IMG/VR virus record: IMGVR_UViG_3300009441_000036
Location: 1-26,095 of that record
DNA: 26,095 nt
Reading direction: 5' to 3' (one strand)
From: a virus
A program made the position numbers and the translations under genes. Positions 1 to 26,095 of the stretch are shown in pieces. The number at the start of each line of letters is the position of its first letter. The first letter of the stretch is position 1. Under the pieces are notes generated by a model, which saw only the letters and a list, made by a program, of their open reading frames with translations, was not told where the DNA came from and did not search any database.

Positions 1-696
1 AAGAAAGTTATAGATGCATTCTATGACGGTAAAGACATGGACGGTAAAACCGTTAAATCAGTTGGAGACAAACTCGAAACAACTGGTATGGGTGCTCAAG
101 TCGTTCTAAAGAGACAGGGTAATAAGTTTAGAATCTTTGGTATTATTGATAGTAGACGCGTCCAAGAGATTATCAGATACATCAAGAAGTCTTACCCTAA
201 GAACACTATAATAGAAAGTGTAGAGGAAGGCAAACAAGTAGCATCATTCAATGATATTGCTGACATAGTTCTCAACAAAGTAAAACAGAGATTAGAAAAG
301 GAGTGGAATAAGAATACCGAAAAAGGTTTAGGAATGCTAAACACTTTAGGTTCAATGGTTGGTTACAAAGCAACTGATAAGAAACAAGATAAAGGTAAAT
401 TATTCCTCAAGTTCGGTGACATGAACGAAGATGCAGCGGTAGATGGTGCAGAGTTAAAGGCAAAACAAGCAGGTGAACTTGAGAGAATCAAGAACAGACA
501 CGAAACTGAACTTGAAGCACTTACTGATAAGCACGAAAGAGAACAAGAACGTATCGACGGTCAGAAAGAAAAAGAGACTGCTGATAACGCAATCAAATCA
601 AAACGTGATGCAGACAGAAAGAAAGCTGAAGCAGACGCAGACAAAAAAGAATCGTACCACATGAGTACGTTAAACAAATTGAGGAAGGAAAAATGA
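1..696 (+). CDS. Hypothetical protein with charged coiled-coil C-terminus (5' partial)
   Basis: The frame is open from base 1, so the gene starts upstream of the window; the first internal ATG is at 37. About 231 residues are visible. The N-terminal part is a mixed alpha/beta segment containing GMGAQVVLKRQGNKFRIFGI. From about residue 150 of the visible part it becomes almost purely charged (E, K, D, R, Q), as in a long coiled coil. It overlaps the next gene by ATGA at 693-696, which suggests translational coupling. I do not recognise the family. Its place at the head of a run of virion-type genes suggests a structural or assembly role, which is inference only. Confidence 0.75.
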   Translation, partial: KKVIDAFYDGKDMDGKTVKSVGDKLETTGMGAQVVLKRQGNKFRIFGIIDSRRVQEIIRYIKKSYPKNTIIESVEEGKQVASFNDIADIVLNKVKQRLEKEWNKNTEKGLGMLNTLGSMVGYKATDKKQDKGKLFLKFGDMNEDAAVDGAELKAKQAGELERIKNRHETELEALTDKHEREQERIDGQKEKETADNAIKSKRDADRKKAEADADKKESYHMSTLNKLRKEK

Positions 697-1196
697 AAGG
701 TACTGGTAACAAAAACGACAACGGCGTTCTAGAAATAGGGACTGATGAAATAGTAAGTTCTTACCAAGAAGACACCCCAGGCCAACAGGTAGAGAAATAT
801 CTATCTCAAATTGCACAGGTAAATGAAGAGAGACAGAAAAAACACTTCTCTACTAAGTATCCTAACCCTCTAAAAGGTTTCCCATACAACGAGTCTAAAC
901 TAGAAGAAAAAAATTGTGGTTGTGGAAAAACTCCATGCGAAACATATGGTGAGTCTTACGAAGAAGTTCAAGAAGCTGCACCAAAGATGAAAAAACTTTC
1001 TATCTATGGTTCAGAAGTATCAGGACTAAAACGAACTGATAAAGGTAAAGGAACGTCTACCTTACAATATTCGTCAATGTCTACTTACACTGCTAAACCA
1101 GTAGTGTTGAAAGGAAAATTAGCATTTAGAGTAGAAGATACACAAGGTGCATTTGAAACCCTTGACCTTCTAAGCTTTGCAAAGATGTACGGTTAA
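693..1196 (+). CDS. Hypothetical phage protein with a short Cys cluster
   Basis: This 167-aa protein starts at an ATG that overlaps the upstream stop (ATGA) and is preceded by a good Shine-Dalgarno sequence (GAGGAAGG). A small cysteine cluster, NCGCGKTPC, lies near residues 73-81 and could bind a metal, though four tightly spaced cysteines are not a classic zinc ribbon. The C-terminal third is rich in beta-forming residues and has no recognisable catalytic motif. It sits in a tandem set of likely late genes. The function is unknown, and I only infer that it may be virion-associated. Confidence 0.75.
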   Translation: MKGTGNKNDNGVLEIGTDEIVSSYQEDTPGQQVEKYLSQIAQVNEERQKKHFSTKYPNPLKGFPYNESKLEEKNCGCGKTPCETYGESYEEVQEAAPKMKKLSIYGSEVSGLKRTDKGKGTSTLQYSSMSTYTAKPVVLKGKLAFRVEDTQGAFETLDLLSFAKMYG

Positions 1197-1198
1197 AC

Positions 1199-1732
1199 GT
1201 GAAGACCTTTCATGAACTGGCTATACACGAGACAGTTGATAGTCTACAAGAGACTAACACTAATATAACCGACAATCCCTTTAGATTGGGTTCTATGATG
1301 TATTTTGAAGTCATCAAAGAGGCAAGGAAGAGACTTGCAGAAGGAAGATTCCGACTTACTGAAGTAGATAGACACATCATCGAGACTGATTTAGGTGAAT
1401 TTGAAATCTATGAGGGTAACATGGTACCATTAGATTGTCCTATGATACTGGAAGAAGAAGAGAAAGAACCCGAACTAAACAAACCTAAAGTAGGTGGTTC
1501 GAAGAAGTATTACGTATATGTTAAAGACGGAGACAAGATTAAGAAGATATCTTGGGGTGATACTACAGGGTTAAAAGTCAAGTTAAAGAATGACAAAGCA
1601 AGAAAGAGTTTCGTTGCAAGACACCAATGCGACACTAAGAATGACAAGACTACAGCAGGTTATTGGGCTTGCAGACTACCACACTATGCAAAACAACTAG
1701 GTTTAAGTGGTGGTGGAGACTTTTTTTGGTAG
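1199..1732 (+). CDS. Hypothetical protein ending in a conserved marine-phage C-terminal module
   Basis: This 177-aa protein probably uses a GTG start two bases after the previous stop; the N-terminus MKTFHELAIHE resembles other marine phage proteins. Residues about 30-85 form an acidic helical part. From about residue 100 there is a compact module with KKYYVYVKDGDKIKKISWGD, then ARKSFVARHQC, then GYWACRLPHYAKQLGLSGGG and a final aromatic end. From memory this C-terminal module recurs in T4-like marine phage proteins, sometimes attached to different N-termini; its function is not known to me. The two cysteines (in RHQC and YWAC) are part of the repeated signature. A structural role is inference. 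Confidence 0.75.
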   Translation: MKTFHELAIHETVDSLQETNTNITDNPFRLGSMMYFEVIKEARKRLAEGRFRLTEVDRHIIETDLGEFEIYEGNMVPLDCPMILEEEEKEPELNKPKVGGSKKYYVYVKDGDKIKKISWGDTTGLKVKLKNDKARKSFVARHQCDTKNDKTTAGYWACRLPHYAKQLGLSGGGDFFW

Positions 1733-1733
1733 T

Positions 1734-1740
1734 CTAAATA
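1734..1740 (+). promoter_or_regulatory. T4-like late promoter box (CTAAATA)
   Basis: CTAAATA lies just after the stop of the upstream gene and 19 bases before the ATG at 1760. It resembles the late boxes TATAAATA/CTAAATA of T4-like phages. The expected start of transcription is about six bases downstream, leaving a short leader that still contains the AGGAA ribosome site. Confidence 0.5.
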
Positions 1741-1759
1741 TAGGTGTAGGAATTAAATT

Positions 1760-2297: not shown

Positions 2298-2300
2298 ATA
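2293..2300 (+). promoter_or_regulatory. T4-like late promoter box (CATAAATA) placed for a leaderless mRNA
   Basis: CATAAATA ends five bases before the ATG at 2306 and overlaps the end of the cupin-like gene. In T4 the late box occupies about -13 to -6, so the predicted transcription start falls on the ATG itself. No Shine-Dalgarno sequence is visible before that ATG. Confidence 0.5.
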
Positions 2301-2305
2301 AGACT

Positions 2306-3630: not shown

Positions 3631-3631
3631 C

Positions 3632-5164: not shown

Positions 5165-5184
5165 ACGTATAAACGGAGAATAAA

Positions 5185-5739: not shown

Positions 5740-5743
5740 GAAC

Positions 5744-6007: not shown

Positions 6008-6011
6008 AATT

Positions 6012-6401: not shown

Positions 6402-6410
6402 ACACCTTTG

Positions 6411-6440: not shown

Positions 6441-6457
6441 TAACTTTATAATACATT

Positions 6458-6829: not shown

Positions 6830-6905
6830 GCTCCCATAGCTCAGCTGGTAGAGCAACTGATTTGTAATCAGTAGGTCAACCGTTCGAATCGGTTTGGGAG
6901 CTCCA
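6830..6905 (+). tRNA. tRNA-Thr (anticodon TGT), CCA encoded
   Basis: A 7-bp acceptor stem pairs GCTCCCA with TGGGAGC. The D arm is AGCTCAGCTGGTAGAGC. The anticodon stem CTGAT/ATCAG closes the loop TTTGTAA with anticodon TGT. The T arm contains GTTCGAATC, and the discriminator T is followed by an encoded CCA. It reads ACA, a frequent Thr codon here. Confidence 0.95.
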
Positions 6906-9618: not shown

Positions 9619-9647
9619 TTGTAAAATAGCATACATTCATGTATAAT
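9619..9647 (+). promoter_or_regulatory. Sigma70-type promoter before the primase gene
   Basis: TTGTAA (9619-9624) and a perfect TATAAT (9642-9647) are 17 bases apart. The expected transcription start is about 9654, the proposed primase start codon, so the mRNA would be leaderless. This is the only good promoter seen ahead of the primase-nrd operon. Confidence 0.65.
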
Positions 9648-9660
9648 GGATGTATGCTAT
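9626..9660 (+). promoter_or_regulatory. Inverted repeat enclosing the -10 box and the primase start codon
   Basis: The arms 9626-9638 and 9648-9660 form 13 pairs with one G-T wobble around a nine-base loop that contains TATAAT. The ATG at 9654 is inside the right arm. A read-through RNA would bury the start codon in the stem, while RNA initiated at the promoter would lack the left arm. This resembles the logic of T4 gene e, where early RNA folds over the ribosome site and later RNA starts inside the hairpin. Confidence 0.65.
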
Positions 9661-10691
9661 GGTTAGAAAGAAAATATCTTTCGATGACTGTGGGTTCGTT
9701 AGAACTTGCAAAATGGAAGGGTGACACTACGTTGAATCACAGGTGCTTATACTGTGGTGATTCGCAGAAGAACAAACATAAAGCTCGTGGGTATCACTTT
9801 GTCATCGAACAAAGTTTTATATTTAAGTGTCACAACTGTGGTAAATCTACCTCAAGTGTGAACTTTATCAAAGACCATTTCCCAACCCTACATAAAGAGT
9901 ACATTAAGGAATGGTTACAAGAGAGTGGCAAGAAACCAAAGAAGCACGCATCTAATCATAAGATGCCCAGTGCAAATGTTTTCAAGTTTACTCCAAATCA
10001 AGAATTACTAAATATGAAGAAAGTCGATTTGTCTGCAATTATGTTTCCCGCTAAGGAGAAACAAGTTGCACGTGAATACTTACAAGCACGTAAGGTTCCC
10101 GAAGATAAGATTGACCAATTATGGTTCGTAGAGTCAGCCCAAACACTTGCACTCCTAGACGTTAAGTATAGGGATAGAGTTCTTGGGAATGACCCACGAA
10201 TCGTTATACCATTCTTTAGAGAGGATGGGGAACTGGTAGGAGTAAGTGGCAGAGCAATCAACAACTCACCACTAAGATACTTGACCATGAGGTTCCTAGA
10301 TGATGTTCCACTCATCTATAACATACAAAATGTGGACAAAACAAAAACTATCTATGTCACCGAAGGCCCTATAGATAGTTTATTCCTACCCAATAGTGTT
10401 GCAGTCGGGGGTAGTGACTTTAAGAAAATAGACGATGGTATGAAGGAGAACGCAGTTATCATTTATGATAACGAACCACGTAATGGAGAAATACTCAAGA
10501 AACTAGAAGAGGTTATTGAGTTGGGATATCACGTTTGCATATGGGATGATAAACGCATTGCAGACTGTAAGGATATAAACGATATGATTATGAAAGGATT
10601 GACCCAAAGTGAAATAGTAGATATCATTGATACTTGTACATTTGAAGGACTTTCGGCAAAAATAAAATTAATGGAGTACAAGAAAATATGA
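9654..10691 (+). CDS. DNA primase (T4 gp61-like)
   Basis: This 345-aa protein carries an N-terminal zinc-binding module with CLYCGDSQ (Cys31, Cys34) and KCHNCGKS (Cys59, Cys62). A Toprim catalytic core follows, with YVTEGPIDS (Glu237), VIIYDNEP (Asp272) and a CKDINDMI motif near 305-312. This is the architecture of phage replicative primases that make RNA primers with a hexameric helicase at the fork. An upstream ATG at 9639 lies in the hairpin loop and would add only five residues; I prefer 9654 because the homologous region begins at WLERKYL and the promoter predicts transcription from there. It is coupled to nrdA by ATGA. Confidence 0.88.
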   Translation: MLWLERKYLSMTVGSLELAKWKGDTTLNHRCLYCGDSQKNKHKARGYHFVIEQSFIFKCHNCGKSTSSVNFIKDHFPTLHKEYIKEWLQESGKKPKKHASNHKMPSANVFKFTPNQELLNMKKVDLSAIMFPAKEKQVAREYLQARKVPEDKIDQLWFVESAQTLALLDVKYRDRVLGNDPRIVIPFFREDGELVGVSGRAINNSPLRYLTMRFLDDVPLIYNIQNVDKTKTIYVTEGPIDSLFLPNSVAVGGSDFKKIDDGMKENAVIIYDNEPRNGEILKKLEEVIELGYHVCIWDDKRIADCKDINDMIMKGLTQSEIVDIIDTCTFEGLSAKIKLMEYKKI

Positions 10692-15001: not shown

Positions 15002-15381
15002 TGGTAATGGAAGTAATGACAGCAACTAAAAAAGCATTGTTGGACAGGAGTGCAAAGCAATTTGGATGCACTGTTCATGAATATAATACTGTACCTCAAT
15101 TGATACAGAAGATTGCATTGTGGCACCAAGATAGAAACCTCATTGAGGGTTCAACAGACAAAGACCAGTACATGAAACTCATACAGGAATGTGGTGAGTT
15201 ATCCGATAACATCTGTAAGAACAAAGACATTGCAGACGACATTGGTGACATCATGGTAGTGTTAATTAACATTGCAGTTCGTAATGGTCTAAGTATAGAA
15301 CATTGTCTAGAAGTAGCGTACCACGACATCAAAGACCGAAAAGGTAAGATGGTAGACGGTGTATTTATTAAGGAACTTTAA
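15001..15381 (+). CDS. MazG-like nucleotide pyrophosphohydrolase
   Basis: This 126-aa protein carries the all-alpha NTP pyrophosphatase signature: QECGELSDNI (Glu63, Glu66) followed by IADDIGDIMVVLINIA (Asp80, Asp83) and a C-terminal VAYHDIKDRKGKM helix. MazG-type enzymes hydrolyse (d)NTPs, or in some cases alarmones, to monophosphates; phage versions often sit with nucleotide metabolism genes, as here. The start may be 15001 (TAATG overlap with nrdB), 15007 or 15016; the last has TGGAAG just before it. Confidence 0.85.
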   Translation: MVMEVMTATKKALLDRSAKQFGCTVHEYNTVPQLIQKIALWHQDRNLIEGSTDKDQYMKLIQECGELSDNICKNKDIADDIGDIMVVLINIAVRNGLSIEHCLEVAYHDIKDRKGKMVDGVFIKEL

Positions 15382-15382: not shown

Positions 15383-15625
15383 ATGATAGAGATATACGGA
15401 AAAACCAATTGTCCATTTTGTGACAAAGCAAAAGCATTATGTGTGAGAGAAGGATACACATATATGTACCACCAGTTAGATACTGATTTCACAAGAGAAC
15501 AACTCTTCGAACAGTTTCCTACTGCGAGGACATTTCCTCAAATTAAAATTGACGGCGAGGCAATCGGTGGTTACACTGAACTAAACGCATGGCATAATGA
15601 TGGTCTTGAGGCATATGGAGAATAA
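15383..15625 (+). CDS. Glutaredoxin
   Basis: The 80-aa protein has the thioredoxin-fold active site NCPFC (Cys10, Cys13), the cis-proline segment RTFPQIKIDG (Pro52) and the IGGYTEL glutathione-site motif. It is a typical single-domain glutaredoxin and the likely electron donor to the NrdA/NrdB pair encoded just upstream, analogous to T4 nrdC. The ATG at 15383 starts directly on MIEIYGKTNC with AAGGAAC as ribosome site. Confidence 0.93.
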   Translation: MIEIYGKTNCPFCDKAKALCVREGYTYMYHQLDTDFTREQLFEQFPTARTFPQIKIDGEAIGGYTELNAWHNDGLEAYGE

Positions 15626-16779: not shown

Positions 16780-17289
16780 ATGGAAAATAAAGAAGAAAAG
16801 AAAGTAATGAGAATATTCGTCGATATGGACGGAGTACTTGCCGACTTCAACACTGGAGTTGAGGCATTAACAGGGACACCGTTCCCTAATACCGACCAAG
16901 GTCATAACGATTATGACGACAGGAAGGAAGAATTAACGAACAAGAGATTGTTCAGAATGTTACCACCTATGCCCGACATGTGGGATTTAGTTGGTTACAT
17001 TAGACACACTAACCTACCGTGGGAAATACTCACTGCAGCTGGTGTTGTCAACAGAGAGTTAGTAGTTTGGGACAAACAAGAATGGATTAAGGAACATGTG
17101 AGTCCTACTGTTGTTGTTACATGTACCATGACAGGAAGTCAGAAAGGAATGTTTGCAATAGAGGGAAGTGTCTTGATTGATGATAGACAAAAGAACCTTG
17201 ATGCATGGATAGAACATGGGGGCATCGGTATTTTACATACTAGTGCGGAAGATACAATCAACCAATTAAAAGCATTGAGAAATGGATAA
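16780..17289 (+). CDS. HAD-family 5'(3')-deoxyribonucleotidase-like phosphatase
   Basis: The 169-aa protein has the haloacid dehalogenase motifs: VDMDGVLADF with nucleophile Asp15 and Asp17, ILTAAG (motif II Thr), a Lys around 122, and SVLIDDRQKNL with Asp134/Asp135. The size and motif spacing resemble small 5'-nucleotidases that dephosphorylate (deoxy)nucleoside monophosphates, which fits nucleotide recycling near the nrd genes. Translation may start at 16780 or, with MRIFVDMDG as N-terminus, at 16807. The stop abuts tRNA-Arg. Confidence 0.82.
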   Translation: MENKEEKKVMRIFVDMDGVLADFNTGVEALTGTPFPNTDQGHNDYDDRKEELTNKRLFRMLPPMPDMWDLVGYIRHTNLPWEILTAAGVVNRELVVWDKQEWIKEHVSPTVVVTCTMTGSQKGMFAIEGSVLIDDRQKNLDAWIEHGGIGILHTSAEDTINQLKALRNG

Positions 17290-17366
17290 CGAATTGTAGC
17301 TCAACTGGATAGAGCAACTGCCTTCTAAGCAGTAGGTTAGAGGTTCAAGTCCTCTCAGTTCGACCA
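17290..17366 (+). tRNA. tRNA-Arg (anticodon TCT), CCA encoded
   Basis: The acceptor stem pairs CGAATTG with CAGTTCG (one G-T pair). The D arm is GCTCAACTGGATAGAGC. The anticodon stem ACTGC/GCAGT closes the loop CTTCTAA with anticodon TCT. The T arm contains GGTTCAAGTCC, and ACCA is encoded at the 3' end. It reads AGA, the dominant Arg codon of these genes. Confidence 0.95.
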
Positions 17367-17421: not shown

Positions 17422-18021
17422 ATGAATAAAGAAATTATTGATTTAGGTGAACACGTTCTCTTACACAAGGGATTTTGTGACGATGCGTTTATTGAAGGTG
17501 TCATGGAAATCTACAAAAAGTGTGAAGACCGTGGATTAACATCCCCACGTCGAGATTACGATACATCTAAAATCACAAGCAAATCTGATGACGCAATCGG
17601 TGTCACTTCAGTACCCGCCTCATTCTTTGGTGGTCAAATAGGTCATCTTCTCGATATCATTGAGGGTGAAGATGGAGTTCTAGATAATTTCTTTGCAAAG
17701 TACCCAGTCGAAGACAACTACAGAGGTCTTATGGTGAGTGGTGCAAAGATTCAGAAGACACTACCACAACAAGGATATCACGTATGGCATTGTGAACATA
17801 CCAACTGTCCTACATCAAACAAATCACTACTTGCATGGGCAATCTTCCTCAACGATGTTGAAGAGGGCGGTGAGTTAGAATTCTTATACCAATCATTACG
17901 AGTTAAACCAAAACGTGGAGACTTAGTTGTCTGGCCTGCTGGTTTCACTCATCTCCACAGAGGTAACCCACCTTTGAAAGGAGAGAAATACATTATAACA
18001 GGGTGGATAGATTATGCTTAG
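17422..18021 (+). CDS. 2OG-Fe(II) oxygenase-like protein (prolyl-4-hydroxylase type core)
   Basis: The 199-aa protein has a double-stranded beta-helix core: YHVWHCEH with His123 and Glu125, a DVEEGGELEFLYQSLRVKPK section, GDLVVWPAGFTHLHRG with distal His177, and GEKYIITGWI with Lys189 as the likely 2-oxoglutarate anchor. The first pair is HxE rather than the usual HxD, which some active members tolerate. The motif GGELEF and the Lys anchor resemble prolyl-4-hydroxylase-type domains. It begins the long oxygenase/membrane-protein operon and overlaps the next gene by eight bases. Substrate unknown. Confidence 0.85.
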   Translation: MNKEIIDLGEHVLLHKGFCDDAFIEGVMEIYKKCEDRGLTSPRRDYDTSKITSKSDDAIGVTSVPASFFGGQIGHLLDIIEGEDGVLDNFFAKYPVEDNYRGLMVSGAKIQKTLPQQGYHVWHCEHTNCPTSNKSLLAWAIFLNDVEEGGELEFLYQSLRVKPKRGDLVVWPAGFTHLHRGNPPLKGEKYIITGWIDYA

Positions 18022-18271
18022 CAGAATTAAATTCTTCTTCAAGAAGTATCTTTGGAGAATATGGGAATGGATTAAACATCTGTTCAAATCAGAATATGAG
18101 ATTACAATATACAGACAAGCTGAAAGTGGCAACATGTACAAGTCTCAATATGTATCAAGAAATATCTTGGTCAATAAACAAACTAGACTACAGTTCAAAG
18201 ACCATGATACTGGAAAGATGGTAGACATACAGTCAGCCAAGGGTCTAGAATTTAAAATAGTGGAGAAATAG
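18014..18271 (+). CDS. Small protein with aromatic, cationic amphipathic N-terminus
   Basis: The 85-aa product starts MLSRIKFFFKKYLWRIWEWI, a run of aromatic and basic residues likely to form a membrane-surface helix, followed by a soluble beta-rich part (YEITIYRQAES, TRLQFKDHDTGKMV). It overlaps the oxygenase-like gene by eight bases and ends one base before the spanin-like pair. No signal peptidase site and no full membrane span. It might associate with the inner membrane; function unknown. Confidence 0.65.
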   Translation: MLSRIKFFFKKYLWRIWEWIKHLFKSEYEITIYRQAESGNMYKSQYVSRNILVNKQTRLQFKDHDTGKMVDIQSAKGLEFKIVEK

Positions 18272-18272
18272 T

Positions 18273-18656
18273 ATGCAAAACTTACTAATTGGTCTTCTCG
18301 TCGCTTCTTGCTTCTTTGGTTATACAATGTATAGTCAGAATCAAGTGTTATCTGCAAATGTAGTTAAATTAGAAGCAGCGGTAGAGGAACAGAAACGAAC
18401 CATTTCAGCAATGAAAGAAGCCTTTGAAAAACAAGGTAAAGCATTGCAAAACATGAGTCGTAAGAATGCTTCCATCGAAGCAGAAAAGGCGGAGTATCTA
18501 CAGATATTCCAAAGACATAATCTATCTGCTCTTGCAGTTGCAAAGCCAGGCATCATGTCAGGCAAAGTCAACAGAGCAACAGTCAGAGTATTTGAGGGTA
18601 TAGAAGATGACACTAAGAACATTAGCAATCTTGACACTAGCACTAACAACGACTAG
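18273..18656 (+). CDS. Candidate inner-membrane spanin (i-spanin, Rz-like)
   Basis: The 127-aa protein has an N-terminal membrane anchor (LLIGLLVASCFFGYTMY) and then a long coiled coil (VVKLEAAVEEQKRTISAMKE) expected in the periplasm. Its 3' end overlaps the start of a lipoprotein gene by 50 bases in another frame. That membrane-anchored coiled coil plus overlapping outer-membrane lipoprotein layout is the hallmark of Rz/Rz1 spanin pairs, which fuse inner and outer membranes at lysis. Spanins are too divergent for sequence proof, so the call rests on layout and topology. Confidence 0.65.
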   Translation: MQNLLIGLLVASCFFGYTMYSQNQVLSANVVKLEAAVEEQKRTISAMKEAFEKQGKALQNMSRKNASIEAEKAEYLQIFQRHNLSALAVAKPGIMSGKVNRATVRVFEGIEDDTKNISNLDTSTNND

Positions 18657-19164
18657 TTGTAGTATATTCAGTGGATTTGGTAGTAAACCAATTGAGGTGA
18701 TATCTACACCTATCGAAATAGAAATCATGCAACCAGTATTACCTAGACCATTAGACTTAACTGCTCCTAATTGGTTCGTAGTATCAGAGGCTGCAGTAGA
18801 CAACCTATGTGTTAGAACCCTATCATATGACCCTAAGAAGTTTGAAGAGAAAGACGGTATTAAGATAGAGAAACTAAAACGTCCTAAGAACTGTGCATTG
18901 ACAGACAGAGACAATCCCGAGTGGCCAGTAGGATACTCACACCTTGACCTATTCATGGATGAAATGAAAGAGCGTAACGGTGGTGAGATTGTATTCGTTG
19001 CAACTACGATAGGTGACTATGAAGTCATGAGTGGTAACATGCAAGAAATCAAAAGATACATCAAGCAGTTAGGTGAGGTAGTGGTTTACTACAGAGAAGT
19101 AACAATCAAAAAACCAACTGGTGACGAGAAGGGTGCTGGAGTAGCAATTAAAACAAATGACTAA
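18607..19164 (+). CDS. Lipoprotein, candidate outer-membrane spanin (o-spanin)
   Basis: The 185-aa protein begins with a lipoprotein signal (LAILTLALTTTSC, Cys18) and a Pro-containing stretch (MQPVLPRPLDL), then a globular domain with APNWFVVSEAAVDNLC and a long conserved-looking GDYEVMSGNMQEIKRYIKQL section. Similar lipoproteins with an NWFVV segment and an EIKRYI helix are common in marine T4-like phages. It is longer than a classical Rz1, so it may be an enlarged o-spanin or another lysis lipoprotein. The lipobox has Thr at -3, which is unusual. It overlaps the i-spanin candidate and the next small membrane protein. Confidence 0.65.
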   Translation: MTLRTLAILTLALTTTSCSIFSGFGSKPIEVISTPIEIEIMQPVLPRPLDLTAPNWFVVSEAAVDNLCVRTLSYDPKKFEEKDGIKIEKLKRPKNCALTDRDNPEWPVGYSHLDLFMDEMKERNGGEIVFVATTIGDYEVMSGNMQEIKRYIKQLGEVVVYYREVTIKKPTGDEKGAGVAIKTND

Positions 19165-19330
19165 ATTAATATTTGGAATCTTTGGACTACTCATAGTCCT
19201 ACAAGCATTAACAGGATGGGATTTCTTATCTTTATTCCTAGTAGAAGTAAGCACACCAATAGGGTTCCTTGCATTCATAGGGTTGATACTACTGTATGGA
19301 TATGAAGTAGAGACAGAAACGAAAGAGTAA
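19157..19330 (+). CDS. 57-aa two-span membrane protein, holin candidate
   Basis: The gene starts at an ATG overlapping the lipoprotein stop. The 57-aa product has two hydrophobic segments, residues about 4-20 (IFGIFGLLIVLQAL) and 34-48 (IGFLAFIGLILLYG), joined by a short loop and ending in an acidic tail. Two spans, very small size and position right after the spanin-like pair make it a candidate class II holin or antiholin. No endolysin gene is visible in this window. The function is inferred from layout only. Confidence 0.65.
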   Translation: MTKLIFGIFGLLIVLQALTGWDFLSLFLVEVSTPIGFLAFIGLILLYGYEVETETKE

Positions 19331-19343
19331 GGACTTTTATATT

Positions 19344-19571
19344 ATGAAATGGTTAAATAAATTTGTAGACTGGCTAGCAAAAGAAGAAGACATACCCAAA
19401 GAAGCAGAAATCATCGACGTAATGAAAGATGATGTTGACCCCAATGCCATAACAATTGAGAATGCATACAAGACTCGTTGGATTTGGTATCACACTATTC
19501 TTGCAATAGGTATTTTTCTTACTAACATTTTACTCATTGCAATTTTATTATTACTGGCGATTAAATTATGA
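19344..19571 (+). CDS. Small membrane protein with C-terminal span (75 aa)
   Basis: The 75-aa protein has a soluble, acidic N-terminal half and a single hydrophobic C-terminal segment from about residue 48 (WYHTILAIGIFLTNILLIAI and beyond). The TRWIWYHT motif before the span looks conserved in small proteins of marine phages from memory. It lies next to the lysis-type genes and could be a lysis regulator, but a plain membrane anchor is equally possible. Its stop overlaps the start of the next oxygenase-like gene by four bases (ATGA). Confidence 0.65.
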   Translation: MKWLNKFVDWLAKEEDIPKEAEIIDVMKDDVDPNAITIENAYKTRWIWYHTILAIGIFLTNILLIAILLLLAIKL

Positions 19572-20314
19572 AACCAAGTCAGATTAAACCAACACAGTAT
19601 TCACCTGCTCAACATAGAGTGATGAATCTGTTTCCTACACCGTTCCTTAGAGGACAGTTAGGATTCCCCGAAAACCTATTGAAGAAAGATATCGACAAAT
19701 TGATATCTTCTGTTAGTAAACGTGATGGTAAAGACAAGTTGTCAGATTACACATCATACTTTGACCAAGACATAAGAGACGCAACACACAAGTTACCATG
19801 GTTCACCGACTTTGCAAATATCATGAAAGATACTTACATAGAGTTTATCCGTACACAATTTAACAAAGACGTGAGTCATCTTAACAGGAGTGATATACAT
19901 TTCTTTGCATGGATTAACAGATACGAGAGTGAACACCAGCATGACATTCATAATCATGTTGACTCATATATCAGTGGAACCTACTATGTCAATGACACTG
20001 ATAGACCAATCAAGTTTTGGAATCCCAACATGGCAGCTCAATACGCACACAATGGTAGAGAGGACGTAGTCCAATTTGATGATTTACCCAATATGCAGTT
20101 CACAGGATGTGAAGGATTTCAATCAGACATGATGTTTGAACCATCGGCTGGTGATTTCCTACTTTGGCCGTCTTATGTAATGCACTCAGTACCACCATCG
20201 ACTAGCGCAAGCAGCTCAACACGGTATTCCATATCATTTAATCTTAAACACACTGAACCCATGAACGATACAGAACATGGTGATGCATTCAGTTATGGGA
20301 ATGTATTCAAATGA
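19568..20314 (+). CDS. 2OG-Fe(II) oxygenase-like protein (TIGR02466/2OG-FeII_Oxy_5 type)
   Basis: The 248-aa protein contains HDIHNHVDSYISGTYYVN with His130 and Asp132 as an HxD pair, a FWNPNMAAQY segment, then GDFLLWPSYVMHSVPPS with distal His206 and TRYSISFNL with Arg219. The SGTYYVN and ISFNL motifs are those of the putative 2OG-Fe(II) oxygenases of the TIGR02466 group. It is coupled to the upstream membrane protein by ATGA and overlaps the next small gene. All key positions are present, so catalysis is plausible. Substrate unknown. Confidence 0.85.
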   Translation: MKPSQIKPTQYSPAQHRVMNLFPTPFLRGQLGFPENLLKKDIDKLISSVSKRDGKDKLSDYTSYFDQDIRDATHKLPWFTDFANIMKDTYIEFIRTQFNKDVSHLNRSDIHFFAWINRYESEHQHDIHNHVDSYISGTYYVNDTDRPIKFWNPNMAAQYAHNGREDVVQFDDLPNMQFTGCEGFQSDMMFEPSAGDFLLWPSYVMHSVPPSTSASSSTRYSISFNLKHTEPMNDTEHGDAFSYGNVFK

Positions 20315-20490
20315 TAGCAATATTGTATGAGTGGTGGCAGATATGGAAGCATGCTCTAGGTGCATTTGACGAAGAGGATGGTTATAATCCACAACACGAA
20401 AACAAGATAGCATTGATAAGAACTTTAATCGTAGGCATTAACGTCCTAGTCGGTATTCTTATCTCTATCAATATATTAAGGGACTGGTAA
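20311..20490 (+). CDS. 59-aa single-span membrane protein
   Basis: The gene starts in an ATGA overlap with the upstream oxygenase-like gene and ends in a TAATG overlap with the next. The 59-aa product begins MIAILYEWWQIWKHALGAFD, is acidic in the middle, and has a C-terminal hydrophobic segment (LIVGINVLVGILISINIL). It is the third small membrane protein in this stretch. Position between two oxygenase-like genes suggests co-expression, not function. Confidence 0.65.
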   Translation: MIAILYEWWQIWKHALGAFDEEDGYNPQHENKIALIRTLIVGINVLVGILISINILRDW

Positions 20491-21194
20491 TGAACAAAAC
20501 ATACGCGATTGATAAACTATATGCAATCAATCCAAAACTAGAACACACATACGAGAACAATGTTCTCACTATCCACAACTTCTTCGAGAATCCCGAGGAC
20601 GTGTATGAGCATATCACCAGTAGACAGTATCCTATGTGGAAATACTCTACAGAACGTGACTCACCTAATGGAATTGTATACAACGATTGCCGTATCACAG
20701 ACAAGATAGGACATCCTACTAGGGTTGGTGTCAATGAAAATGAGCGAATACTAGACCTTTGCAGACGATACTGGTGGAAAGGTGACTATGACTATCAACA
20801 GATACATGAGTTCAACTGTTTCCAAACCATATCAGAGTTTGACCCAAAGATGCAACACTATCCACACATTGATAGTGCATTCATCACACCCGACGACAAG
20901 TCTACATTGAACATGTTAGTATACATGGACAAGGAAGAGAGTGGTGGAACTGCTGTATATAAGGGTGAGTGGATAACCAACATGGAACATATGGGTGTAC
21001 TATACGAGGTGGAGAAAGACTTCGAAATTGACTATATAATACCAGCAAAGTTCAATGAGTGTGTCATCTTTACAGGTAACAAACTACATGGTGCATGGAT
21101 AGACGACTACAATAAATATTGTGAAGACAAGTGGAGATACTCATACGTGAGATTCTTCCATCCTAGAGAAAGAGGCAACAATGCCAATTCGTAA
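20490..21194 (+). CDS. 2OG-Fe(II) oxygenase-like protein
   Basis: The 234-aa protein has the core motifs HYPHIDSAF (His126, Asp128), LNMLVYMDKEESGGTAVYKG, and ECVIFTGNKLHGAWIDD with distal His200, followed by WRYSYVRFFHP where Arg216 or Arg221 could bind 2-oxoglutarate. The arrangement resembles DUF6445-type proteins. It starts in a TAATG overlap and overlaps the next oxygenase-like gene by 14 bases, so two putative oxygenases are translated back to back. Substrate unknown. Confidence 0.8.
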   Translation: MNKTYAIDKLYAINPKLEHTYENNVLTIHNFFENPEDVYEHITSRQYPMWKYSTERDSPNGIVYNDCRITDKIGHPTRVGVNENERILDLCRRYWWKGDYDYQQIHEFNCFQTISEFDPKMQHYPHIDSAFITPDDKSTLNMLVYMDKEESGGTAVYKGEWITNMEHMGVLYEVEKDFEIDYIIPAKFNECVIFTGNKLHGAWIDDYNKYCEDKWRYSYVRFFHPRERGNNANS

Positions 21195-21825
21195 GTTAGC
21201 AGTTCCGAGTCAACTAGCCAAGGACTTCGAAGAAGAGAGAGATAAAAGTACAGATATGCTACTGGTTGCAGATAGCGTATTGACTAAAGATACATGTGAT
21301 GTTATAATAGGTATTATGGATACAATACCCGAATCGGTAGTGTATCAGAAAGACAATGGTGAAATCTGTTCAGAGGTCAAGAGTGACATGGACAGGAGTT
21401 GGAAATACACACATCCACATACTAACCATAACGTTGTTGTATTAGAGCCAGGCACTCAACCGTTTGAACAAGTATTGGATTTGATAGAACCGTATCTTCC
21501 CAAGTCACGAGACTTCGGAGAGATAACCTATTGCAATATCATGAGATATCCATATGACTCTATGTTCCAATGGCACAAAGACGAAGCGGATGCTGGTGAT
21601 ACAGGAACAGCGATATTCTTATTGAATGATGAGTATCAAGGGGGTAGATTAAATGTCGAAGGACACACAATTTATCCAAGACGAGGCACTATGATTGCTT
21701 TCAACAATTCAACAGAACGTTGGCATAGTGTAGAACCCATATTCAGTGGAGACAGATATGTCTTTGCAATATGGTTTAAAAGGGTAGACGACGAGAAGGA
21801 TGAGACCCATGAGCAACAAGCTTAG
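21181..21825 (+). CDS. 2OG-Fe(II) oxygenase-like protein (P4H-type)
   Basis: The 214-aa protein has a textbook Fe(II)/2-oxoglutarate core: FQWHKDEAD (His132, Asp134), FLLNDEYQGGRLNVEGHTIY, RRGTMIAFNNSTERWHSVEP (distal His182) and GDRYVFAIWF (Arg192). The YQGGRL motif and Arg ten residues after the last His are typical of prolyl-4-hydroxylase-like dioxygenases, so this is the most convincing enzyme of the set. It overlaps both neighbours, by 14 bases upstream and 17 downstream. Substrate unknown. Confidence 0.9.
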   Translation: MPIRKLAVPSQLAKDFEEERDKSTDMLLVADSVLTKDTCDVIIGIMDTIPESVVYQKDNGEICSEVKSDMDRSWKYTHPHTNHNVVVLEPGTQPFEQVLDLIEPYLPKSRDFGEITYCNIMRYPYDSMFQWHKDEADAGDTGTAIFLLNDEYQGGRLNVEGHTIYPRRGTMIAFNNSTERWHSVEPIFSGDRYVFAIWFKRVDDEKDETHEQQA

Positions 21826-21985
21826 ATGTAGTGAGTGTAACAAAGAATTAGATATGACAAAAATCAAATACCACACACCCACAAATCAAAAACCAATTCA
21901 TGTCTTTTGTGATGCATATTGTAGTCACGATTGGTATGTTGTAAATAAACCAAGAACAAAGGAGAGAAATGCCGACAAAATTTAA
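21809..21985 (+). CDS. 58-aa Cys-containing zinc-finger-like protein
   Basis: I chose the ATG at 21809 because GAGAAGGA lies eight bases upstream; an in-frame ATG at 21800 is also possible. The product starts MSNKLRCSECNKELD and later has HVFCDAYCSHDWYVV, giving CxxC and CxxxC pairs about 25 residues apart, which suggests one zinc site. The C-terminus is basic. It overlaps both neighbours. Function unknown; small zinc fingers of this type may bind nucleic acid or proteins. Confidence 0.7.
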   Translation: MSNKLRCSECNKELDMTKIKYHTPTNQKPIHVFCDAYCSHDWYVVNKPRTKERNADKI

Positions 21986-22214
21986 ACCAACCACGAGTGT
22001 CAAAGCTAGAGGTGCAACAATGTCAACAGTAACACATTACTATATGAAGAGTACGCCTCTGAAAGAGCTGATTGAGGAATATAACAAAATCTTAAACACG
22101 AAGGGCAAAGGTAAATTGAGGCAGAAAATCTCAAATGAGTTTGCAAGAAGAAGAAAGATAGGTATACCATATGCACATTTTGTTGAACCGAGTACAGAAG
22201 TAGATGCGAGTTAG
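21969..22214 (+). CDS. Conserved small marine T4-like phage protein (81 aa)
   Basis: A strong ribosome site (AAGGAGAG) precedes the ATG. The 81-aa product begins MPTKFKPTTSVKARG and contains THYYMKSTPLKELIEEYNK and KGKLRQKISNEFARR. From memory this pattern (an HYYxKxTPxxEL helix followed by a basic KxKQKxxNELxRR helix) is a conserved hypothetical protein in T4-like cyanophages. It is basic and could contact nucleic acid, but nothing proves this. It overlaps both neighbours by 17 and 11 bases. Confidence 0.75.
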   Translation: MPTKFKPTTSVKARGATMSTVTHYYMKSTPLKELIEEYNKILNTKGKGKLRQKISNEFARRRKIGIPYAHFVEPSTEVDAS

Positions 22215-22827
22215 TACCCCCAAAGGAAATCTCATAACACCATTCGGCCCACCAGTATGGATTGGTAAGTTAGACGATGCCATGATTGACCATGCAATAG
22301 ACTGTATTGAGTCAAGACGTAACCAGTCTGAATTCGATATGAGTTCTAGACTTGCTGGACGAGTTGATGAACAACTCACTATCGAAGATATTGCATCCGA
22401 AGAACTAAAACTTCACATCATTGACCATGCATCCGAATGGGCCCAAGCAATTGGTATGGAGATATCATCAAATGACTTGATGATAGATGGATTATGGGTC
22501 AACCTACAAAAACAATTTGAATACAATCCAATACATGCACACAGTGGTATGTTCAGTTTTGTATTCTACACAAAGAACAATATGACAAGAGAACAAGCAA
22601 TCGACAACAAGTTCGATACAAGCTCGAACAACCCGAAAACTCTTGCTGGTCATATTGAATTACATTATGGAGAGACCCAGTTCATGAACTGGACTTCCAT
22701 GAATCATTACCCCGAGAAAGGAGATATAATTATCTTCCCATCGTGGTTAAACCACTCAGTATACCCATTCCATGACCCTAAAGGGGAAAGAGTGTCGGTT
22801 GCTGGTAATATGCGTTACAAAGAGTAA
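22204..22827 (+). CDS. 2OG-Fe(II) oxygenase-like protein (TIGR02466 type)
   Basis: The 207-aa protein has NPIHAHSGMFSFVFYTKN (His111/His113), a LAGHIELHYG strand pair, then GDIIIFPSWLNHSVYPF with distal His184 and ERVSVAGNM with Arg196. Family features such as the FPSWLxHSV motif are clear. The first motif is HxH followed by Ser, without the usual Asp or Glu two residues on, so the iron site may use a different ligand or be inactive. It overlaps the previous gene by 11 bases. Substrate unknown. Confidence 0.8.
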   Translation: MRVSTPKGNLITPFGPPVWIGKLDDAMIDHAIDCIESRRNQSEFDMSSRLAGRVDEQLTIEDIASEELKLHIIDHASEWAQAIGMEISSNDLMIDGLWVNLQKQFEYNPIHAHSGMFSFVFYTKNNMTREQAIDNKFDTSSNNPKTLAGHIELHYGETQFMNWTSMNHYPEKGDIIIFPSWLNHSVYPFHDPKGERVSVAGNMRYKE

Positions 22828-22840
22828 CGAGGAGAACGAT

Positions 22841-23077
22841 ATGGGATTTTGGAATAAATTCACAGAGTTTCTAGGATTTGAGATTGTAAGAGCAAGAGAC
22901 GACAAAGGTCGTTATATTGCAGACGACAAATCAACGCCTGATGTAGACGAATCTAAAAAGAAAGTCTACAAGAGCAGAAGTAAGAAAACTGCATACAAAC
23001 CTAACACCAATGGTGGTGGAAGGAAAGGTAAGAAGAAGAAATCTTCTTATAAACCGTCTACCGATAATAACGGATAG
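22841..23077 (+). CDS. Small protein with basic, low-complexity C-terminus (78 aa)
   Basis: I chose the ATG at 22841 (MGFWNKFTEFLGFEIVRARD) because GAGGAG lies just upstream; a longer reading from 22772 would overlap the previous gene. The first 35 residues look amphipathic and folded; the rest is rich in Lys, Ser, Gly, Asn and Thr, with GGGRKGKKKKSSYK. Such tails bind nucleic acid or are flexible linkers. It ends 19 bases before tRNA-Ala. Function unknown. Confidence 0.65.
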   Translation: MGFWNKFTEFLGFEIVRARDDKGRYIADDKSTPDVDESKKKVYKSRSKKTAYKPNTNGGGRKGKKKKSSYKPSTDNNG

Positions 23078-23096
23078 ACTAACTAGATAATATATT

Positions 23097-23172
23097 GGGG
23101 CTGTAGCTCAGTTGGGAGAGCGTCTGCCTTGCACGTAGAAGGTCGTAGGTTCGAACCCTATCAGCTCCACCA
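23097..23172 (+). tRNA. tRNA-Ala (anticodon TGC), CCA encoded
   Basis: The acceptor stem pairs GGGGCTG with CAGCTCC (one G-T pair). The D arm is AGCTCAGTTGGGAGAGC. The anticodon stem TCTGC/GTAGA closes the loop CTTGCAC with anticodon TGC. The T arm contains GGTTCGAACCC, and ACCA is encoded. It reads GCA, the favoured Ala codon here. Confidence 0.95.
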
Positions 23173-23204
23173 ATTATTATTGTAACTTTTAAAAGGAGAA
23201 ATAT

Positions 23205-23834
23205 ATGAAGAATATATTATTAGGATGTCTATTGGCATTCTCTTTCAACTCATATGCAGTTGAAGTAAATGGTACTATAGGGTACACATCTGATTACGTA
23301 TGGAGAGGAGAATCTCAAGGTAATCAACCAGCATTTTCATTTGGGGCAGAAGTCACAACTGATACAGGATTCTATCTTGGTGCGTGGGAGTCAGACGTAG
23401 AGTTTGGTGATACCACAACAGAGACAGACTACTATGGTGGATATAGACTAGACGTTGCTGACAATGTCACAGCGGACTTAGGTTATATGAGATATACCTT
23501 TGATGGTTCTACAGAAACGTTTGAAGAAGTATATGGTATTGTGAAATATCATAACCTATCTGTAGCGTATTTTCAGAACATTGAGGACAACGACAACTAT
23601 GGTGAAGTGAGATACGACTTATGGTTTGTACCTAACGTAGATGTCACTGTAATGTATGGAATGTACACAGTCGATGATACTTTTTGGATGGCAACCATCG
23701 GAAGAGCATTGAACGAGTCGTTCTATATCAAAGCAAAGATAGGCGTCTACAGAGACGCATTCGGTATGACTGGCAATCTGTTTGAAGGACAACTTGCTGA
23801 CCATGTGTCGGTAGGACTAACCTACAACTGGTAG
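23205..23834 (+). CDS. Outer-membrane beta-barrel, TorF/Gcw_chp-type putative porin
   Basis: A strong AAGGAG ribosome site lies before the ATG. The 209-aa product has a Sec signal peptide (MKNILLGCLLAFSFNSYA) with a likely cut after A18, then alternating amphipathic strands and a C-terminal LTYNW ending in an aromatic residue, as in outer-membrane barrels. Motifs such as IGYTSDYVWRGESQG, FYLGAWESDVEFGD and DYYGGYRLD match the TorF/Gcw_chp family (TIGR02001), which is known mostly from bacteria. In a phage it could change host permeability or block receptors; both are inference. A hairpin terminator follows. Confidence 0.85.
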   Translation: MKNILLGCLLAFSFNSYAVEVNGTIGYTSDYVWRGESQGNQPAFSFGAEVTTDTGFYLGAWESDVEFGDTTTETDYYGGYRLDVADNVTADLGYMRYTFDGSTETFEEVYGIVKYHNLSVAYFQNIEDNDNYGEVRYDLWFVPNVDVTVMYGMYTVDDTFWMATIGRALNESFYIKAKIGVYRDAFGMTGNLFEGQLADHVSVGLTYNW

Positions 23835-23848
23835 CACATACCACTGTT

Positions 23849-23867
23849 TGGGGTCAGTAAAACCCCA
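23849..23867 (+). terminator. Hairpin after the porin gene, weak intrinsic terminator
   Basis: TGGGGT and ACCCCA pair around a seven-base loop and are followed by only three T residues. The position, 15 bases after the porin stop, supports a terminator, although the T tract is short. No other element in the first part of this gap is as stable. Confidence 0.45.
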
Positions 23868-23882
23868 TTTACCTATATAATA

Positions 23883-23906
23883 TATGTGTCACATTCTTGG
23901 CACATA
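23883..23906 (+). promoter_or_regulatory. Stem-loop in the gap after the porin gene
   Basis: TATGTGTCA (23883-23891) pairs with TGGCACATA (23898-23906) over nine pairs with one G-T wobble and a six-base loop. A TATAAT lies just before it (23876-23881), but no -35 box fits. The role is unclear: it may be an operator, a second terminator element or an RNA stability hairpin. Confidence 0.35.
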
Positions 23907-23967
23907 ATCGTAACATATAATTAACATGAGTAAGTAGACGAAAGTCGAAGTCCAGTTAAGGAGAGTT

Positions 23968-24027
23968 ATGATACAACAAGGAGATATAAATGCAATATTA
24001 CGCATCAATGTCTGCCGAGTATCTTAG
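23968..24027 (+). CDS. 19-aa micro-ORF, possible leader peptide
   Basis: A strong ribosome site (AAGGAGAG) stands before an ATG that opens 19 codons, MIQQGDINAILRINVCRVS. It overlaps the next micro-ORF in a different frame: its body covers that gene's ribosome site and start. That layout fits a translated leader that affects access to the second start. It may also be chance, because the reading is very short. Confidence 0.35.
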   Translation: MIQQGDINAILRINVCRVS

Positions 24028-24106
24028 GACACAAGCAGACAGATTTCATCGTATGATGAAGAGTGGTAGACTACATAAAGTAGTTAAATTAATGGAAACA
24101 AATTAA
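23990..24106 (+). CDS. 38-aa micro-protein
   Basis: A near-ideal ribosome site (AAGGAG, six bases spacing) precedes this ATG. The 38-aa product starts MQYYASMSAEYLRTQADRFH and continues with a basic helix (MMKSGRLHKVVKLMETN), so it is likely one or two helices with a positive face. I recall loosely similar tiny proteins in marine T4-like phages but cannot name one. It is the only gene-like content of the 390-base gap 23835-24223 besides its leader, hairpins and promoters. Confidence 0.6.
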   Translation: MQYYASMSAEYLRTQADRFHRMMKSGRLHKVVKLMETN

Positions 24107-24116
24107 TAAAAGACAC

Positions 24117-24145
24117 TTGACGAAACCCTTCGTATAGCCTATAAT
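24117..24145 (+). promoter_or_regulatory. Strong sigma70-type promoter
   Basis: TTGACG (24117-24122) and a perfect TATAAT (24140-24145) are exactly 17 bases apart. Transcription should start near 24152, inside the right arm of the overlapping terminator hairpin. It would drive the 291-aa gene at 24224. Confidence 0.75.
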
Positions 24146-24166
24146 AGATTATATGAAGGGTTTTTT
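24123..24166 (+). terminator. Intrinsic terminator with the promoter's -10 box in its loop
   Basis: AAACCCTTCGTATA (24123-24136) pairs with TATATGAAGGGTTT (24150-24163) over 14 pairs with one G-T wobble, and the T run continues to 24166. The 13-base loop contains TATAAT. Upstream transcripts should stop here, while new transcripts starting at about 24152 lack the left arm and escape. It is a compact terminator-promoter switch. Confidence 0.7.
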
Positions 24167-24172
24167 ATGTCC

Positions 24173-24179
24173 CTAAATA
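24173..24179 (+). promoter_or_regulatory. T4-like late promoter box (CTAAATA)
   Basis: CTAAATA lies 44 bases before the ATG of the 291-aa gene and downstream of the sigma70-type promoter, so this gene may be transcribed by both the early and the late programme. Confidence 0.45.
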
Positions 24180-24223
24180 AACACAACAACACAACATTAT
24201 TATTATATTATTAGGAGTTATAA

Positions 24224-25099
24224 ATGTTTGAATTGATTACAGTAAAGACCGAAGGTCTAGGCGTTACGTCTGAAGACGTTAACAGATTAAAGTTATCTTT
24301 GGATAGACAAAGAACGTTAGAGAATGACGGTATGACAGTTGCAAGGTTATCTTGTTATACAGATGATGCAACAGGATTAGACGCGGGTATCCGTGTTATC
24401 CCATTGATGAAAGACCCCGAAATTATTCATGATGAATGGTATCGTATTCTCTTATGGGATGGAGACATGAAAGGACTTAGAGAAGAGTCTAAATGCACAT
24501 ACGTAGATGCAAAAGTAGTTGCACGTAATATGTGTACCTCTATTGTCTATGAAGGATTGCCTAATGAAGGCAAAACAGATGACTGTAACTTCACCTTCAC
24601 TCAAGAAGAAACAGATGCAATCAAGGCAAACAACACAAACTTCCTATACCAAGAACGTAACTGGATGGAAGAAGGTGATACACAATACTTCCCACACTTC
24701 CTAGGATGGGTACAAGGTGACGGTAAGTATATCGTTGACAACTTCCTTGCTGACAAAGCAGGCATCCAAGCAAAATACGGTACTAACGTACAACAATACA
24801 TCGAAGACCAAATTGCATTAAACAATGGTATGATATTAAACACTCAAGCTGGTATGGTCGGTATGTACAATATCAACGATGAGTTTGCAAACCTAGAACT
24901 CAATCAGAAATGGGAAACCGTAGTAAGACCATCATTCACTGATAATGGTGAATGGAGAGGACAAGGTGGAGACGAGACAGCAAAGTTCATATCATTCGAC
25001 CATGAATACCGTACCATCTCACAACAATGTAGTTTCCTATACCTAAAAGGTGATGATGCACCCATCTCGGATAGATATCTACAACTATGGGTTCTATAA
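24224..25099 (+). CDS. Hypothetical protein (291 aa)
   Basis: The ATG follows a good TAGGAG ribosome site, and two promoter types lie upstream. The 291-aa protein is acidic and looks globular: VARLSCYTDDATGLDAGIRV, then WYRILLWDGDMKGLREESKC, TQYFPHFLGWVQGDGKYIVD, an AGIQAKYGTNVQQYIEDQI helix, and a C-terminal ISQQCSFLYLKGDD segment. It has no signal peptide or membrane span and no enzyme motif that I can identify. It overlaps the oxygenase-like gene downstream by 13 bases, so the two proteins may work together. Function unknown. Confidence 0.7.
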   Translation: MFELITVKTEGLGVTSEDVNRLKLSLDRQRTLENDGMTVARLSCYTDDATGLDAGIRVIPLMKDPEIIHDEWYRILLWDGDMKGLREESKCTYVDAKVVARNMCTSIVYEGLPNEGKTDDCNFTFTQEETDAIKANNTNFLYQERNWMEEGDTQYFPHFLGWVQGDGKYIVDNFLADKAGIQAKYGTNVQQYIEDQIALNNGMILNTQAGMVGMYNINDEFANLELNQKWETVVRPSFTDNGEWRGQGGDETAKFISFDHEYRTISQQCSFLYLKGDDAPISDRYLQLWVL

Positions 25100-25806
25100 G
25101 ACAATCTGAAGACTACCATGTAGTCATTCCTAAGTTTTACACAGAGAAAGAATGCGATAGTATCTGTGACCTTATCACACAAAATCACGCCTCCTTAATA
25201 TCAGAACATGGTATTGAGGAGTCGTCACATAGTCACAGTTTCTACACTGGACTCACAGGACTGCATTCAACCTACAACTGGATACCCATCATAGAAGATG
25301 AGTTAGGCATCAACCTACTCGAACGTCTCATGCATGAGATAGACACCAAAGACACAAAGAATATATTCATCAAGTCATGGTGCAATCTATGGAACAACGG
25401 AGAAGGGATAAAACATCATAGACACGCATCCCTTGAGTACGAGACGATTGGTAAGAATGAGTATGCGACTATTGAGAAACACAAGCAACACGAGGAAATG
25501 GCTAGAAATCACATGATTAGCGGTAATATATTCCTTAGTAAGAATGAACATAGAGAATACGGTACATGGTATCAGAACAAAGGATGGGTAGAAAACATAA
25601 GAGGTGACCTACATCTATTCTCACCATTGATTATTCATTCCGTAGACTCCAACACGAGACTCGAGCCCAGAATGTCTCAAGCATTCGACATTCATATAGA
25701 CGGACACGTCACCGACACCTATCTAGAAGATATAGAGATATTCGGTAGAGGAGACGGATGGGACAATTTCATGCACGTCGAGGTAAACTCAGACGAGACG
25801 CGGTAA
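25087..25806 (+). CDS. 2OG-Fe(II) oxygenase-like protein, iron site uncertain
   Basis: The 239-aa protein has a GIKHHRHASLEYETI segment (His111, His113), ISGNIFLSKNE, GDLHLFSPLIIHSVDSNTRL with distal His184, and RMSQAFDIHI with Arg195. The late motifs look like the TIGR02466-type fold (SGNIFL and IIHSV...R...FDI). As in the gene at 22204, the first motif is HxH and lacks the standard Asp. It overlaps the 291-aa gene by 13 bases. It is the last + strand gene before a convergent junction. Activity and substrate unknown. Confidence 0.7.
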   Translation: MGSIRQSEDYHVVIPKFYTEKECDSICDLITQNHASLISEHGIEESSHSHSFYTGLTGLHSTYNWIPIIEDELGINLLERLMHEIDTKDTKNIFIKSWCNLWNNGEGIKHHRHASLEYETIGKNEYATIEKHKQHEEMARNHMISGNIFLSKNEHREYGTWYQNKGWVENIRGDLHLFSPLIIHSVDSNTRLEPRMSQAFDIHIDGHVTDTYLEDIEIFGRGDGWDNFMHVEVNSDETR

Positions 25807-25816
25807 TCACATTAGC

Positions 25817-25866
25817 ACACTAAGTTGCACATAAAACCAACACCATGCAACACTAAGTTGCACATA
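25817..25866 (+). repeat. 17-bp direct repeat with alternative hairpins at a convergent gene junction
   Basis: ACACTAAGTTGCACATA occurs at 25817-25833 and again at 25850-25866, 33 bases apart. The second copy contains the stop and last codons of the minus-strand gene; the first lies in the gap. TGCAAC at 25846-25851 can pair with GTTGCA in either copy (25824-25829 or 25857-25862), giving two exclusive hairpins. A role as bidirectional terminator or a small duplication scar is possible. Confidence 0.7.
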
Positions 25867-26095
25867 TATTAATATTCATAATCCATCTATTAGAATCCCT
25901 AGTATTCTGATACGAATGATATGACCTCTCAGAAGGTCTAAACATATAGGCATCATTCAACGCCCACTCATGACACCATACACGAGACCCCGAGCTACCA
26001 TGAAACATCGTAGGGTCACCCATATGACTCAAAGGGACAAGTATAGTAAGAAGCTTACGACTACCCTTATCAGTATGAGGGGGATACAAGTCAGA
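25853..26095 (-). CDS. 2OG-Fe(II) oxygenase-like protein, C-terminal part (5' end outside the window)
   Basis: The reading is open to the right end of the window, so the gene starts beyond it; a TTG at 26089 is an internal codon, not a start. The visible 80 residues contain YPPHTDKGSRKLLTILVPLS with an HxD pair (HTD), a WCHEWALNDAYMFRPSERSY stretch leading to the distal His (SYHSYQN) and RWIMNINI with an Arg. This is the C-terminal core of a Fe(II)/2-oxoglutarate oxygenase. It is the only gene on the minus strand here and converges with the + strand block. Confidence 0.75.
   Translation of the reverse strand, partial: SDLYPPHTDKGSRKLLTILVPLSHMGDPTMFHGSSGSRVWCHEWALNDAYMFRPSERSYHSYQNTRDSNRWIMNINICAT

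Follow-up and report, generated by a model that had tools for sequence, protein, structure and literature searches.

Absence of GATC from a fragment of a marine T4-like phage, exchange of erased words among its relatives, and host restriction as a probable cause

The loss of restriction sites from phage genomes is a phenomenon of an already known kind. Staphylococcus phage K lacks GATC, which has been attributed to restriction by Sau3A (PMC6532042), and our own count in the first 50 kb of its genome gave 0 sites against 112 expected. More broadly, 46 of 46 phages with hosts that encode enzymes specific for GATC show under-representation of this word, and restriction-site avoidance in prokaryotic viruses is described as widespread, if not universal (PMC6286503, Rusinov et al. 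2018). T7 carries 6 GATC sites against 141 expected, as counted here, and phiX174 carries none, for a reason that its authors called unclear (PMC5014478). In the ocean, pelagiphages are depleted in GANTC, reported with no host R-M system found, and SAR11 genomes have been reported to be free of such systems (PMC9516812).

How does the DNA described here compare? The window, that is, the whole stretch analysed, is a virus fragment of 26,095 bases without flanks. Together with its closest relatives (the window clade) it resembles the Kayvirus phage K, facing Sau3AI, as a lineage of large lytic myoviruses from which GATC has been eliminated; unlike phage K, the window clade belongs to another family and host, has erased several words, and switches the erased set among close relatives. 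As in the phages surveyed by Rusinov et al. (2018), Type II sites are under-represented, but here the loss is near-total over 86–153 kb and is gained and lost repeatedly on a tree. GATC loss is shared with T7 and phiX174, for which Dam/MutH is discussed; unlike these, the window lineage also erases other palindromes, and its putative host order yielded no protein of MutH size. The GANTC-depleted pelagiphages are likewise marine phages missing a methylation or restriction word, although the word is a different one and the window clade has GANTC at a normal level. A literature search turned up nothing specific on phages of marine flavobacteria that have lost GATC. What is unusual in the window clade is the completeness of the loss over about 150 kb, the erasure of several words at once and the rapid switching among close relatives.

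Gene content and GATC counts of the window

The gene content assigns the window to an uncultured marine T4-like myovirus (Kyanoviridae or T4-like), with a T4-type DNA primase (9639..10691, plus strand; PHROG 47, 1.5e-71) and ribonucleotide reductase subunits related to those of T4-like marine myoviruses. The class Ia large subunit gene nrdA (10688..12982, plus strand; PHROG 84, E=0), which served as anchor for finding relatives and building a tree, has its best named matches in cyanophages, at about 72%. The nearest named records of the small subunit NrdB (nrdB, 13904..15001, plus strand; PHROG 86, 5e-154), the anchor for 82 window-clade loci and for the GATC-state tree, are the Pelagibacter phages HTVC008M (68%) and Mosig (64%). 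The gene between them (12966..13907, plus strand) belongs to PHROG 2954, to which PHROGs gives the label ferrochelatase. Downstream on the same strand follow a MazG-like pyrophosphohydrolase gene (15001..15381; PF03819, 1.9e-4), which is the first gene after nrdB and occupies an accessory position in the window clade, a glutaredoxin gene (15383..15625; PF00462, 2.3e-10) and a 5'-nucleotidase (deoxyribonucleotidase) gene (16780..17289; PF06941, 7e-9; PHROG 2643, 1e-35). Five 2OG-Fe(II) oxygenase-like genes lie within about 8 kb of plus strand (17422..25806), at 17422-18021, 19568-20314, 21181-21825, 22204-22827 and 25087-25806, the last scoring below the Pfam cut-off. The same region contains a DUF6445 gene (20490-21194). 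Three tRNA genes, all on the plus strand, read tRNA-Thr(tgt) (6830..6905), tRNA-Arg(tct) (17290..17366) and tRNA-Ala(tgc) (23097..23172). By eye, a minus-strand open frame at 25853-26095 (PPHTDKGSRKL...) looks like another 2OG-Fe(II) oxygenase, and a short direct repeat, CACTAAGTTGCACATA, occurs twice, with a spacing of about 35 bases, in non-coding DNA around 25815-25865.

GATC is absent from the window, against 95 sites expected under a maximal-order Markov model and 87.7 by base composition; a sequence-only reading had put the expectation at about 90, and the computation agrees with it. The score of z = -12.3 is the lowest among all 256 4-mers. As that reading had also stated, the loss covers coding and non-coding DNA alike, the latter amounting to about 2 kb. 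It had named a similar depletion of all palindromic 4-mers as the outcome that would speak against it, and this is not what we found: CTAG (76/85 observed/expected), ACGT (79/81), TCGA (82/84), CATG (132/152) and GTAC (83/109) are near expectation, CCGG (1/17) being the sole further palindromic 4-mer that is strongly low. Because the remaining palindromes are near expectation, palindrome avoidance in general is not the cause. The case for strong counter-selection is upheld by synonymous-codon shuffles of 43 genes that preserved all proteins and overall codon usage, which produced 67.2 +/- 6.4 GATC sites and never fewer than 48 in 1000 runs. Seven GATC-bearing relatives contribute 185 GATC sites to orthologous codon alignments, and the window retains none of them, compared with retention of typically about 15–50% for other 4-mers in the same alignments; roughly half of the differences at these 185 sites leave the local peptide unchanged.

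The constraint is visible in all three reading frames, and the proposal that GATC avoidance constrains codon choice could be demonstrated directly. Ahead of a codon starting with C, aspartate in the window genes is written GAC 50 times and GAT never, while ahead of A the two codons are used 115 and 114 times. Isoleucine after G is ATT (51) or ATA (58) and in 0 of 109 cases ATC; serine after xGA is AGY in all eight cases and TCN in none. These patterns bear on mutational decay, in which deamination of GATm5C to GATT or AATC, or else a technical artefact, would have emptied the window with no selection acting. An M.Sau3AI-like C5 methylase could indeed favour C to T changes. However, GATG (182), GATA (204) and GATT (134) all exceed their shuffle values (144, 168 and 109), with larger excesses for GATG and GATA than for GATT, and this excess without a bias to GATT argues against methyl-deamination, as does the compensating shift to GAC ahead of C. 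The loss also recurs in contigs from many metagenomes, other contigs having normal GATC. We consider decay or artefact scarcely credible.

Extent of the loss and switching of words among relatives

Relatives drawn from IMG/VR via NrdA and NrdB revealed that the loss extends genome-wide. In G033, a near-complete relative of 153.5 kb, a single GATC is left where 529 are expected, and G027 (86 kb) has 0 against 321, whereas G049 (151 kb) retains GATC (287/682). Pooling the 61 GATC-erased window-clade loci gives 32 sites against 3711 expected; the remaining 21 loci of the clade retain the word (891/1467), as do 52 cyanophage-like relatives (3134/3969). Near neighbours can differ sharply, with GATC at 1/61 in one locus (L141) and 46/77 in another (L146). 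On the NrdB tree GATC is erased in 67 of 96 rows, and the minimum numbers of state changes are at least 16 for GATC, at least 12 for ACGT and at least 9 for GTAC, counts that are approximate since the tree is a quick one with several weak deep branches.

Relatives that keep GATC often lack another word instead: AGCT is at 0/13–15 in L102, L104 and L142, ACGT at 0/22 in L155 and GTAC at 0/40 in L146. G039 (140 kb) combines low GATC (18/535) with the absence of ACGT (0/136) and CGCG (0/68). The two named pelagiphages, with which G033 has capsid, portal and terminase homologues in common, infect the same SAR11 strain and have erased different palindromes: HTVC008M (L192, L193, L162) has TCGA at 2/95 and CGCG at 1/68, with GATC low, and Mosig (L194, L195, L163) has ACGT at 0/166, CGCG at 0/45 and GATC at 19/366.

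A scan of 833 restriction-like patterns extended the list of erased words in the window lineage. GGWCC, an AvaII-type site, is at 0/24.6 in the window, 0/79 in G027, 1/142 in G033 and 0/125 in G049, and CCAGA is low in the window (3 against 26 expected). In the window clade the ratio of GGWCC to expectation is 0.10; among pelagiphage-like relatives it is 1.22, and among the cyanophage-like ones 0.89. Since neither GGWCC nor CCAGA is low in the latter two groups, their depletion is specific to the clade. GTGCAC was dropped as a lineage-specific word, being low everywhere, cyanophage-like relatives included. The depletion of CCGG and CGCG, which these relatives also display, was likewise discounted in part. 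The words lost from the window lineage and its kin (GATC, GGWCC, GTAC, ACGT, AGCT, TCGA and CATG) are classic Type II recognition sequences, and those avoided in the window are of this type (GATC and GGWCC, with CCGG nearly so), while ACGT, TCGA and CTAG are normal. Separately, TTAA is strongly depleted in L125 (4/60) and G043 (45/171), an odd loss for an AT-rich phage.

A DpnI-like host enzyme directed at GmATC, acting on DNA methylated by the phage or by a previous host, would also select against GATC, and such enzymes are known (PMC11037411). None of 45 relative records contains a Dam (D12) gene, which leaves phage-made GmATC without support, and the other erased words would go unexplained. 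We judge this mechanism very improbable.

Putative hosts and their restriction genes

Candidate hosts were sought by querying bacterial genomes with the major capsid protein of G033. The three closest matches (92, 88 and 86%) come from MAGs that carry the labels Flavobacteriales and Sphingobacteriales, at places that are themselves GATC-poor (1/32, 1/70 and 0/39) and that group with the window clade. The next capsid group likewise falls in Flavobacteriaceae-type MAGs, with one close place in a MAG labelled Synechococcus. A Nonlabens xiamenensis contig was rejected as host evidence, its capsid protein grouping with that of a Prochlorococcus SAG phage, and no flavobacterial T4-like isolate appears among the phage matches listed for NrdA and NrdB. 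Phage contigs in metagenome bins are weak evidence, and we give marine Bacteroidota as hosts even or slightly better odds. GANTC is the CcrM motif of Alphaproteobacteria, and its ratio to expectation in the window clade is 1.08 where GATC is erased and 0.92 where it is kept, compared with a depletion to 43/336 in HTVC008M; this difference argues against SAR11 hosts.

Does the putative host order contain enzymes that act on GATC? Among 296 genomes from the order of the nearest MAG, eight encode proteins with the MutH/Sau3AI domain (PF02976), 417-481 aa in length and most with two domain matches. The one such protein that was compared aligns with Sau3AI (4pxg) along almost the entire length (5e-77), and C5 methylases adjoin both of the Sau3AI-like loci tested. 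Dam-like methylases score above the cut-off in 13 of the 296 genomes and the DpnII family in one. Neither of the two best-matching MAGs, both incomplete, contains a D12 methylase or a DpnII gene, and in the first a Sau3AI-type domain is missing as well. By these domain matches, GATC restriction is present in the putative host order at low frequency.

The same survey bears on host mismatch repair, a mechanism suggested for T7 and phiX174, in which phage DNA with under-methylated GATC sites would be a target of Dam/MutH. This mechanism predicts exactly a loss of GATC, and the counts for T7 and the zero of phiX174 (PMC5014478) are its models. Yet all eight PF02976 proteins are Sau3AI-like in size and the 296 genomes yielded none of MutH size; nor is GATC alone affected, the loss of GGWCC in the window and of AGCT, ACGT or GTAC in GATC-keeping relatives being unaccounted for. 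Dam/MutH repair is therefore an improbable agent.

Proposed host restriction, candidate phage nucleases and the possible meaning of erased words

We propose, with a probability of roughly three in four, that hosts cutting GATC by Type II restriction, possibly marine Bacteroidota, drove the loss of the word; we infer both the agent and the hosts. Ancestors of the window virus would repeatedly have infected hosts with a GATC-specific Type II system (Sau3AI/MboI/DpnII-like), in which incoming phage DNA with unmodified GATC would be cut. Variants without sites, arising through synonymous or tolerated amino-acid changes, would survive until none were left, and newly arising sites would be purged. 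Through other enzymes the same process would have removed GGWCC and probably CCGG in the window lineage and AGCT, ACGT, GTAC, TCGA or CATG in relatives, and GATC would return once a lineage shifted to hosts lacking the enzyme. Restriction is preferred because, among the relatives, other Type II-like palindromes have been lost in place of GATC or in addition to it, and avoidance differs among related phages as expected with differing hosts. Of the three candidates named from the sequence, a restriction enzyme fits best, while Dam-dependent repair and a DpnI-like nuclease fail on the other erased palindromes. Against restriction, the share of the sampled order with Sau3AI-like enzymes, about 3%, is modest for such complete erasure, although other GATC cutters may be missed, and the contrast between HTVC008M and Mosig on one SAR11 strain is not simply explained by host restriction.

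That contrast is the main ground for looking to the phages themselves. A phage-encoded, sequence-specific endonuclease might degrade host DNA for nucleotide recycling, the phage being protected by lacking the site, and the erased words would then switch as nuclease genes are exchanged. HTVC008M and Mosig, erasing TCGA and ACGT respectively, infect one strain of a group reported to be R-M-free (PMC9516812); the ribonucleotide reductase and nucleotide enzymes of the window make recycling of host DNA plausible, and G033 encodes accessory proteins with SNase, HNH_3 and PD-(D/E)XK domains. But across 82 loci none of the gene clusters near nrdB occurs in every GATC-erased locus while missing from the GATC-keeping ones, the DpnII family is missing from 35 relative records, the PD-(D/E)XK exonuclease is common to GATC-erased and GATC-keeping phages, and the erasure of several words per genome would call for several nucleases. 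We regard such a nuclease, the leading competitor of host restriction, as unlikely. Slightly less probable again is the more specific proposal, drawn mainly from the two phages of one SAR11 strain, that these phages carry exchangeable restriction-type endonucleases of their own with which they destroy host DNA, erase sites in place of methylating them, and record nuclease swaps in their word sets.

Other genes of the relatives deserve mention. The best association near nrdB is that of a 173-208 aa gene, putatively sulfotransferase-like by eye, which 5 of the 21 GATC-keeping loci contain, as against 0 of the 61 in which GATC is erased (L155:6668-7291, L102:7901-8512, L104:6203-6814, L142:12200-12826 and L126:9173-9694; P = 7e-4, uncorrected for 119 clusters and for relatedness), and it is possibly a host-range marker. 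G033 also encodes a DUF6884 protein and the preQ0 pathway, with FolE (L164:725-1384), QueC, a QueE-like radical SAM protein and a PTPS (QueD-like) protein, the QueD/QueE/QueC part being placed only as a region at about 6470-8630 of L169. In some phages the preQ0 pathway feeds DNA or tRNA modification; as an explanation of the GATC loss these 7-deazaguanine genes were rejected, the region being present in a GATC-keeping relative too.

What would host restriction mean for these viruses? Since two pelagiphages differ on a single strain, the question of who cuts can be put to the test. If the restriction reading is true, close relatives that have gained and lost words repeatedly would form a natural data set on the speed at which restriction sites are shed and regained, and the words erased from uncultured marine phages, here GATC and GGWCC, would record the restriction enzymes of their hosts and could be used for host prediction.
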